DNA from: Sphingobacteriales bacterium | GTDB lineage: Bacteria; Bacteroidota; Bacteroidia; Sphingobacteriales; Sphingobacteriaceae | Length of the DNA: 64,000 nt | Assembly: GCA_015655115.1 (NCBI GenBank) | Contig: JAATFQ010000136.1 | Span: 1-64,000 of the forward strand | Direction of reading: 5' to 3' | In this document: one piece after another, positions 48,105 to 51,052 of the stretch | How the letters are laid out: every line of letters begins with the position of its first letter | How positions within the stretch are numbered: position 1 is the first letter of the stretch | The notes under the pieces: model-generated | What the model was told of the DNA's origin: nothing | The model's input: the letters and a program-made list of their open reading frames with translations, nothing else | Database searches by the model: none | Translations under genes and position numbers: made by a program

Positions 48105-50231
48105 ATGGAGAAAAACGTTATCAAAAGAAGTGGCACTTACAGCCGGTTTGAAAGCTATAAAATAGAAGATGCAATCGTCAAATCTTTTCAAAGTACGTCG
48201 GTAACGCCGGATAGCAGTGTTTTTAAATCGGTTATGGATCTGCTGGAGACAAAAGAAACATGGGCGGTAGAAGAAATTCAGGACTGTATAGAAAAAACAC
48301 TTTTTGATAAGGGATATTTTGAAGTCATGCGCTCTTTTATGCTTTACCGTCATACCCGAAAACTGCAACGGGAGCATACCGGAGATCTGCAGGACGACAC
48401 CACCTATGTGAACAGTACCCAGACCATTGAAGAGTATATCAAGCAAACAGACTGGCGTATTAATGCAAATGCAAATACATCATACTCTAACGCGGGACTG
48501 GTTAATAATGTAGCAGGTAAGATCATTGCTAATTACTGGCTGGATAAAGTATACAGCAAGGAAGAAGGATACGCACACAGAAATGGTGATTTTCATATCC
48601 ATGACCTGGATTGCCTTACAGGATATTGTGCAGGATGGAGCCTGCGGGTATTATTAAATGAAGGATTCAACGGAGTAAGGGGACGTGTAGAAAGCCGCCC
48701 GCCATCCCATTTCAGAGAGGCCCTTGGTCAAATGGCAAACTTTTTAGGTATTCTGCAAAGTGAATGGGCAGGCGCACAGGCCTTCAGTTCATTCGACACC
48801 TATCTGGCCCCGTATGTATTCAAAGATCGGCTGACTTATACCGAGGTACTGAAAGCAGTAAGGAGCTTTGTTTATAACCTTAATGTTCCAGCACGCTGGG
48901 GCCAGTCGCCCTTTACAAATATCACTTTAGACTGGGTTGCTCCCGAAGACCTTAAAGGACAGATCCCCACCCAAAAAGACCTTCACCTTTTTGGTCACAT
49001 TACAGATGCAGAGCTCCTGAGAATAAGTAAAGAACGTGGAGCAGAAAAACTTACTGATCTATGCTATGGCCATTTCCAACCGGAAATGAACTTAATTAAC
49101 AAGGCCTATTATACTGTAATGACCGAGGGCGATGCAAACAGCCAGCCTTTTACTTTTCCCATTCCAACAGTCAATATCACAGAAGATTTTGATTGGTATG
49201 GAGAAAATACTGACTTACTATTTGAAAATACTGCGAAAATAGGGTCTTCTTATTTTCAGAACTTTATCGGAAGCCAGTATTTCAAGGATGAATTTGGTAA
49301 CAAAGTAGAAAATCCTGAAGCATACAAGCCAAATGCTGTGCGCAGTATGTGCTGCAGGCTGCAACTTGATCTAAGGGAATTGCTAAAGCGCGGTAATGGC
49401 TTATTTGGAAGTGCTGAAATGACAGGAAGTATCGGAGTGGTGACGCTTAACATGGCACGGCTGGGCTATCTCTATCCTGGCAATGCCGATGCATTATATG
49501 TACGCCTGGATCAGTTGCTGTACCTGGCAAAATCGACCCTCGAAAAGAAACGGGTATTTATACAGGAAATGTACGACCGCGGTCTATACCCATATACGAA
49601 AAGATATCTTGACCATTTCAGGAACCACTTTTCTACTATCGGTGTTAATGGTATGAATGAAATGATTCAGAACTTCACCTCCGGCGAAGACGAGATTACC
49701 AGTAAATGGGGCATTTCTTTTGCAACATCCATTTTGGAACATATCCGTATGCGGCTAAAAGCATTTCAGGAGTCGACCGGAAACCTATACAACCTGGAAG
49801 CTACACCTGCCGAAGGTACCACTTACCGCTTTGCCAAAGAAGACTTCAAGCGTTATCCTGATATTATCCAGGCAGGTGCAGGAGATAATATTTATTATAC
49901 TAACAGCTCACAGATAAGAGCAGATCATACAGACGATCCTTTTGAGGCTTTGATGCTGCAGGACGATCTGCAGTGCAAATATACAGGAGGGACTGTATTA
50001 CACTTGTATATGCGCGAGAAAATCAGCTCAGCCGAAGCATGCCGCAATTTTGTGAGAAAGGTACTGACTAACTTCAGGCTGCCATACATTACCGTCACAC
50101 CTGTTTTTAGTATCTGCCCTGTCCACGGTTACCTGCCTGGCGAACATGGTTTCTGCCCAAAATGTGATGAACTCATTATATTAAAACACACTTTAAAATC
50201 ATCTAATTATGAACAAATTACAGCATCATGA
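48105..50231 (+). CDS. nrdD: Anaerobic ribonucleoside-triphosphate reductase, catalytic/ATP-cone part (lacks the C-terminal glycyl-radical tail)
   Basis: ATP-cone KRSGTYSRFESYKIEDAIVKSFQ; NrdD core HIHDLDCLTGYCAGWSLRVLLNEGF; ends SICPVHGYLPGEHGFCPKCDELIILKHTLKSSNYEQITAS*. Confidence 0.93.
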   Translation: MEKNVIKRSGTYSRFESYKIEDAIVKSFQSTSVTPDSSVFKSVMDLLETKETWAVEEIQDCIEKTLFDKGYFEVMRSFMLYRHTRKLQREHTGDLQDDTTYVNSTQTIEEYIKQTDWRINANANTSYSNAGLVNNVAGKIIANYWLDKVYSKEEGYAHRNGDFHIHDLDCLTGYCAGWSLRVLLNEGFNGVRGRVESRPPSHFREALGQMANFLGILQSEWAGAQAFSSFDTYLAPYVFKDRLTYTEVLKAVRSFVYNLNVPARWGQSPFTNITLDWVAPEDLKGQIPTQKDLHLFGHITDAELLRISKERGAEKLTDLCYGHFQPEMNLINKAYYTVMTEGDANSQPFTFPIPTVNITEDFDWYGENTDLLFENTAKIGSSYFQNFIGSQYFKDEFGNKVENPEAYKPNAVRSMCCRLQLDLRELLKRGNGLFGSAEMTGSIGVVTLNMARLGYLYPGNADALYVRLDQLLYLAKSTLEKKRVFIQEMYDRGLYPYTKRYLDHFRNHFSTIGVNGMNEMIQNFTSGEDEITSKWGISFATSILEHIRMRLKAFQESTGNLYNLEATPAEGTTYRFAKEDFKRYPDIIQAGAGDNIYYTNSSQIRADHTDDPFEALMLQDDLQCKYTGGTVLHLYMREKISSAEACRNFVRKVLTNFRLPYITVTPVFSICPVHGYLPGEHGFCPKCDELIILKHTLKSSNYEQITAS

Positions 50232-50394
50232 GGCTATTCTGGCCCAATATCAGAGTCAACGGAGTAAATGTCTGGTATACACCCGTGTAATGGGCTATCA
50301 CAGACCAGTAGAAAGTTTTAATATAGGTAAAAAAGGTGAGCATAAACAAAGGACCCATTTTGCAGAGCAGCACGACGGCAAAACGATTATATAA
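50209..50394 (+). CDS. Separate glycyl-radical tail of anaerobic RNR
   Basis: MNKLQHHEAILAQYQSQRSKCLVYTRVMGYHRPVESFNIGKKGEHKQRTHFAEQHDGKTII; resembles the NrdD C-terminal glycyl-radical motif. +1 frame, 23-nt overlap with nrdD. Confidence 0.85.
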   Translation: MNKLQHHEAILAQYQSQRSKCLVYTRVMGYHRPVESFNIGKKGEHKQRTHFAEQHDGKTII

Positions 50395-51052
50395 TATTAC
50401 TCCTTTTACGTTACTGGATTATCCCGAAAAAATAGCCTGCATCCTTTGGTTTGCAGGCTGCAATATGCGCTGCAGCTATTGCTATAATCCAGATATTGTA
50501 TTAGGGAAGGGACATATAAGTTACAGTGATGTTTTAATTTTTCTTGATTCACGCAAACATCTGCTTGACGGCGTAGTGCTGAGTGGTGGCGAATGTACCC
50601 TCCATAAAGGCATTTTACCACTGATTGAGCAAATCAGGTCAATGGGCTTGCTGGTGAAAATCGATACCAATGGATCTAATCCCCCAATTCTGGCGAAGCT
50701 CCTCAAAAAGAAGTTGATAGATTATGTGGCGCTTGACTTTAAAGCTCCGGAAAGTAAATTTTACGACATCACGAAATCATATCTGTTTAACGGTTTTGAA
50801 AGTACGTTATCCTTATTGCTCAAGGCTGATATTCCTTTTGAAGTAAGAACAACTGTACACGCCGATCTGCTGAACATTGAAGACCTGGTAGGTATGATAG
50901 CCTATCTTGAAGAAAAAGGCTACCGTGGAAATTACTATATCCAGCATTTTATTAATAATACTGTTACCCTGCAAAAATTGAACTATTCAGTACAGCAAAT
51001 TGATTTTGAGCTACTATCTACACCAAATATTAAGGTAATGGTAAGGAGCTAA
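50336..51052 (+). CDS. nrdG: Anaerobic RNR-activating protein, radical SAM
   Basis: ITPFTLLDYPEKIACILWFAGCNMRCSYCYNPDIVLGKG (CxxxCxxC). Start is GTG 50336 or TTG 50360; overlaps the glycyl-tail ORF. Confidence 0.92.
   Translation: MSINKGPILQSSTTAKRLYNITPFTLLDYPEKIACILWFAGCNMRCSYCYNPDIVLGKGHISYSDVLIFLDSRKHLLDGVVLSGGECTLHKGILPLIEQIRSMGLLVKIDTNGSNPPILAKLLKKKLIDYVALDFKAPESKFYDITKSYLFNGFESTLSLLLKADIPFEVRTTVHADLLNIEDLVGMIAYLEEKGYRGNYYIQHFINNTVTLQKLNYSVQQIDFELLSTPNIKVMVRS

Follow-up and report, generated by a model that had tools for sequence, protein, structure and literature searches.

Anaerobic synthesis of DNA precursors centres on an oxygen-sensitive glycyl radical, which in the class III ribonucleotide reductases (NrdD) characterised so far lies within the catalytic chain. 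The enzymes from P. copri, T. maritima, S. thermophilus and phage T4 share an NRDD core, an ATP-cone, an SCCR-type finger loop, a zinc ribbon, an RVxGY radical loop and an adjacent activase, NrdG. The finger-loop motif SCCR was described in T. maritima NrdD (PMC4493059), and in P. copri NrdD the zinc ribbon and the radical loop lie side by side within the glycyl radical domain (PMC11226230). In the reviews and phylogenetic studies of ribonucleotide reductases searched, the radical domain stands at the C-terminus of NrdD, and splits are mentioned for class II and phage genes (PMC11226230, PMC9669993, PMC3653736, PMC4390871). A two-chain NrdD is described neither there nor in the results of phrase searches, which covered mainly freely available papers.

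Several systems come close. GrcA/YfiD and T4 Y06I are small stand-alone proteins carrying a glycyl-radical loop, one of them phage-borne (PMC8683613, PMC12338860); by 2021 such spare parts had been validated only for pyruvate formate-lyase (PFL), and their existence for other enzymes was raised as a question (PMC8683613). The class II reductase NrdJa/NrdJb is also made of two chains, but belongs to another class (PMC9669993). In phages, nrdA of Aeh1 (nrdA-a/b) and nrdD of phiAS4 (three pieces) are broken frames, of which that of Aeh1 is still functional (PMC3653736).

The nrdD locus of the window

The stretch of DNA analysed here (the window, 64,000 nucleotides from a Sphingobacteriales bacterium) contains all the shared class III elements named above. 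However, whereas the radical loop of the P. copri, T. maritima, S. thermophilus and T4 enzymes forms their own C-terminus, in the window it is encoded as a separate 61-residue protein, referred to below as the tail. The features are as follows.

48105..50231, + strand: nrdD catalytic core, 708 aa, 81.2 kDa, with ATP-cone, class III barrel and zinc ribbon and without a glycyl-radical loop; start ATG at 48105 and stop at 50229-50231 in the ORF list
48114..48362, + strand: ATP-cone, core residues 4-86 (PF03477, E=1.2e-15)
49350..49355, + strand: finger-loop Cys416-Cys417 in SMCCR, the expected site of the thiyl-radical Cys, invariant in 26 relatives
50115..50165, + strand: zinc ribbon C671-P-V-H674 ... 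C684-P-K-C687 by sequence, the whole set lying in the core chain
50166..50231, + strand: variable extension at the core's C-terminus, 21 codons and stop, replacing the linker to the radical loop
50209..50394, + strand: NrdD tail, a putative separate glycyl-radical subunit, 61 aa, 7.2 kDa, ATG start
50269..50271, + strand: tail Cys21 (in SKC), invariant in alignment A2
50293..50295, + strand: tail Gly29, candidate radical glycine in YTRVMGY, invariant; RVxGY motif of the NRDD profile
50336..51052, + strand: nrdG, radical-SAM activase, GTG start, 238 aa (TIGR02495 NrdG2, 193 bits against a cut-off of 131)

The tail ORF lies in the +1 frame relative to nrdD, which it overlaps by 23 nt, and is itself overlapped by nrdG over 59 nt; these positions, and that of the radical glycine codon, agree with an earlier note on this DNA. 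The radical motif SKCLVYTRVMGYHRPVESFNIGKKGEHKQR occurs in the tail ORF and is absent from the core.

The Pfam NRDD profile (PF13597, 562 positions) matches the large ORF over positions 2-528 (E=1.6e-156) and the small ORF over positions 530-562 (E=5.5e-7), the latter matching no other Pfam family. Since the two parts of the profile join, core and tail together correspond to one complete NrdD. The core also scores above the cut-off for NF006126 and TIGR02487, and retains an invariant SMCCR finger loop and four zinc ligands (C671, H674, C684, C687) that are invariant among all relatives aligned. Judged by its sequence, the core is thus an NrdD, in an arrangement that departs from the standard one, in which the radical loop ends the same chain. 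Against a profile built from its own relatives the tail scores E=8e-29, well above anything chance would give; a profile of the tail finds no match in the PDB at E<1. Neither a second tail nor the second intact nrdD that the earlier note had named as counter-evidence occurs in the assembled part of the genome (81% complete, 294 contigs).

The cut falls exactly between the zinc ribbon and the radical loop. Contiguous NrdDs were expected to have few residues between CPxC and the radical motif, and about 6-14 were found in fused relatives; in split relatives, 9-28 residues of core follow CPxC.

The lone Cys of SKC had been proposed to finish a metal site across the two chains. This idea is rejected, because the core already holds the full C-x2-H...C-x2-C set with all four ligands invariant. 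The tail Cys occurs in several fused relatives too, and is missing from some viral tails.

Distribution and history of the split

A search of 401 Sphingobacteriaceae genomes, the group suggested in the earlier note, found an NrdD of the window type in 35; the split is conserved in 28 of the 29 foreign loci compared, and the remaining one, L015, is fused. Among related loci from other Bacteroidota, 107 of 109 show the same split, one is cut by a contig end and one is the fused L015. Loci with a named source (Flavobacterium, Parapedobacter, Algoriphagus, Cyclobacterium, Belliella, Marivirga, Indibacter, Anditalea, Shiella, Arcticibacter and others) are split in 79 of 80 cases, the last lying on a contig that ends just after the core. 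In a sample of the phylum, all 10 tails from the window's own class are in short frames of 56-92 aa, whereas the 11 matches outside that class all fall in contiguous frames of 714-805 aa.

Over 99 distinct Bacteroidota sequences the pN/pS of the tail is 0.064, which by this measure places it under strong purifying selection. The window comes from a fragmented assembly (294 contigs), and a sequencing error, a local mutation or a pseudogene could in principle have produced such a broken gene. This account is refuted by the relatives, as the arrangement recurs in more than 100 other genomes and in complete plasmids, and together with the low pN/pS this leaves it a negligible probability.

The same order of core, tail and nrdG extends beyond the phylum, to Campylobacterota and Pseudomonadota. 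In a plasmid search it was found in Campylobacterota (Sulfuricurvum), and also in Cupriavidus, Bradyrhizobium, Paracoccus, Shinella, Azospira, Aquabacterium, Thiothrix, Cereibacter and Sulfuricystis. On the sequences compared, a broad clade within the class III ribonucleotide reductases is set apart by this split. Several of the tails are labelled by NCBI 'nrdD: anaerobic ribonucleoside-triphosphate reductase' and one 'hypothetical protein', while others are not in the gene table.

The way in which the two genes are joined varies among the 116 non-identical split loci. Relative to the core, the tail occupies frame 1 in 69 of them, frame 2 in 25 and frame 0 in 22. With distances taken from the first ATG, so that a few extreme negative values represent mis-called starts, core and tail overlap in 66 loci (10 of them by ATGA-type -4 overlaps) and do not overlap in 50. 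Overlaps of -4 are typical of coupled genes. Among the Bacteroidota loci the distance ranges from -47 to +318 nt. All 116 tails have an ATG, and a radical-SAM ORF follows the tail in 114.

These numbers bear on the possibility that a programmed frameshift, stop readthrough or bypass joins the two ORFs and that the working enzyme is a single chain. The +1-frame overlap of the window and of many relatives speaks for such an event, but all three frame relations occur, 50 of the 116 loci have no overlap at all, and stops lie in gaps that reach about 300 nt; in addition, junction sequences are not conserved, every tail has its own start codon, and phages carry the tail without a detectable core. 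Because frame relation, overlap and gap differ between relatives, a frameshift product, which the earlier note had kept as a counter-hypothesis, is excluded as far as comparison allows, and is given only an extremely small probability.

Not all members of the group are split. Fused forms occur in Actinomyces oris, Geoalkalibacter, Acidiphilium and Acidithiobacillus. In a quick maximum-likelihood tree, in which several long branches were flagged, the contiguous NrdDs fall outside the split clade with full support, the fused L015 is nested within it, and the Actinomyces and Acidiphilium fusions lie in the proteobacterial branch. L015 looks like a re-fusion, and is the only fused one among the 109 related Bacteroidota loci; its NrdD (L015:1498-3681) contains CPDCEDTKCLVYTRVMGY, with both extensions gone. 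One old split followed by later re-fusions would be the simplest history, though not the sole possible one. The two-chain state is not obligatory, since Acidiphilium, Acidithiobacillus and Actinomyces are fused within or beside the split clade. By contrast with this apparently old, cross-phylum split without any insert, the Aeh1 and phiAS4 splits are found in single phages and involve introns, inteins, inserted endonuclease genes or recent fragmentation.

Genetic data exist for one of these operons. According to a passage of PMC2864759 that cites Siedow et al. 1999, the nrdDG genes of C. necator H16 on pHG1 are essential for complete denitrification. The nrdD annotated on pHG1 is a 676-aa, 76.19-kDa core without the radical glycine, and the tail gene (WP_011154154.1) sits 142 nt beyond it. 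A value of 76.2 kDa for NrdD is reportedly given in the abstract of Siedow et al. 1999. For C. metallidurans, NrdDG appear in the genome paper under the numbers Rmet_5137 and Rmet_5139, leaving one gene number in between. In Bradyrhizobium (L138 and others), Cupriavidus and Paracoccus the split operon is often carried on plasmids or megaplasmids, and it may move together with the ability to denitrify.

Stand-alone tails in viruses

Searching uncultured viral contigs with the tail returned 49 loci, nearly all of which have a short-frame tail and no core within 4 kb; a search with the core itself returned a single viral locus. When 43 of the tail-bearing records were searched over their full length with PF13597, an NrdD core was found in two and not in the other 41. 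The records without a core include some of 176,653, 183,351, 80,876 and 73,371 bases; one of the 41 (G801) returned no family match at all, though its tail is readable, and another record (G796) has an extra weak partial match to PF13597. NrdG2 scored above cut-off in one viral record only, and two more have weaker radical-SAM matches. Most of these records are fragments, so that for no individual phage is the core proven to be missing; the pattern over 41 records is hard to explain except by a real absence.

The contigs belong to phages, as terminase, head-tail connector, tail fibre and primase genes are found near the glycyl-radical tails; a terminase large subunit was present in 12 of the 26 viral records tested. 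In three loci the tail gene lies directly upstream of a lysis gene, encoding an amidase (L144), a phage lysozyme (L157) or an M15 peptidase (L155). Viral tails retain the radical glycine and its surrounding motif, with a pN/pS of 0.275.

Some viral tails deviate in detail. Those of L160, L171 and L177 are without the otherwise conserved Cys ahead of the radical motif. Those of L182 and L184-L187 have TGA exactly at the expected glycine position, and in several of these records the terminase frames contain many TGA codons, which suggests phages of hosts that decode TGA as glycine.

The window tail had no match among the INPHARED phages, and two phage-type tails matched only two records there, L200 and ANMV-1. 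L200, a human gut phage clone, encodes a contiguous NrdD (L200:1530-3938) whose radical loop is followed, in the same chain, by a glutaredoxin-like domain, and a thioredoxin-reductase-like gene (L200:3942-4850) lies downstream; this layout points to thiol reductants for its NrdD family. The 'nrdD' of the archaeal virus ANMV-1 (AJP62049.1, L201:2707-3141) is likewise a short stand-alone glycyl-radical protein without a catalytic core, and is an independent, longer version (144 aa) with a zinc ribbon of its own. It was published simply as a ribonucleotide reductase (PMC4372165).

Like GrcA/YfiD and T4 Y06I, which serve pyruvate formate-lyase, the phage-borne tails probably act as replacement parts for the enzyme of the host. 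Their position right before a lysis gene in L144, L155 and L157 means that they may act late, and a lone tail could instead inhibit or divert the host reductase, as a decoy for NrdG or as a dead-end subunit. Such a role, which would concern the phage copies only, is rather unlikely: the tails keep the radical glycine and motif under a pN/pS expected of a working part, and Y06I offers a precedent for rescue (PMC8683613).

A putative three-protein reductase

Taken together, the comparisons make it very probable that the locus encodes a class III reductase of three proteins, namely the NrdD core, a 61-residue glycyl-radical subunit acting in trans and the activase NrdG, the functions being inferred. 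The two-chain enzyme proposed in the earlier note is supported by the conservation of the split across phyla, by the variable frame and spacing, by the strong selection on the tail, by the order of core, tail and nrdG in the operon, and by the phages that carry the tail alone.

The small protein would be made from its own ATG, probably by translational coupling at the overlap. It would dock beside the zinc ribbon, at the place where the radical loop sits in an ordinary NrdD. NrdG would then abstract a hydrogen from Gly29 of the tail, and the radical would move on to a cysteine in the core's SMCCR finger loop. Oxygen cleaves glycyl radical proteins at the glycine (PMC3019208, PMC4390871); in the proposed enzyme such cleavage would cost only a replaceable 7-kDa part. 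The AlphaFold model of the fused L015 protein (pLDDT 73) resembles in Foldseek the S. thermophilus class III reductase (E=4e-28), followed by those of T. maritima and P. copri. The docking is inferred, because the tail region of this model is of low confidence and the model of the window core is worse (pLDDT 63).

The small protein might also be regulatory or belong to a different glycyl-radical enzyme, with the NrdD core using another radical source. As GrcA illustrates, a small glycyl-radical protein can work for a different enzyme (PMC8683613), and the binding of tail to core is a prediction. Nevertheless, NRDD is the sole Pfam family that the protein matches, at the C-terminal end, it lies between a loop-less core and nrdG in 114 of 116 loci, and it is fused to the core in L015, all of which renders such a role improbable.

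The likeness to GrcA/YfiD drawn in the earlier note holds in part. The tail is a small separate glycyl-radical protein, but its sequence is of the NRDD and not the PFL type. Moreover, GrcA/YfiD backs up an enzyme that bears its own loop, whereas the core in the window has none and no other NrdD was found. Because its partner core is without a radical loop, the tail of the bacterial operons would be a required part and not a spare one.

The split enzymes of bacteria and the lone tails of phages may be two uses of a swappable class III radical subunit, permanently separate in a widespread clade and carried by phages as about 45-80 residues that keep or restart the host reductase; this broader proposal stands at even odds. 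For annotation, the NrdD entries of C. necator, Bradyrhizobium, Paracoccus and their relatives are without the radical glycine, and the missing piece is a small neighbouring gene, which carries the label nrdD or hypothetical or does not figure in the gene table. A natural two-chain NrdD would allow activation, docking and radical transfer to be studied in separate parts, and could account for a low-cost way in which facultative bacteria come through exposure to oxygen. The tail is also a concrete candidate for the question of spare parts beyond pyruvate formate-lyase (PMC8683613) and, if the proposal is true, the swappable, phage-carried tail would be the first spare-part system for a ribonucleotide reductase.
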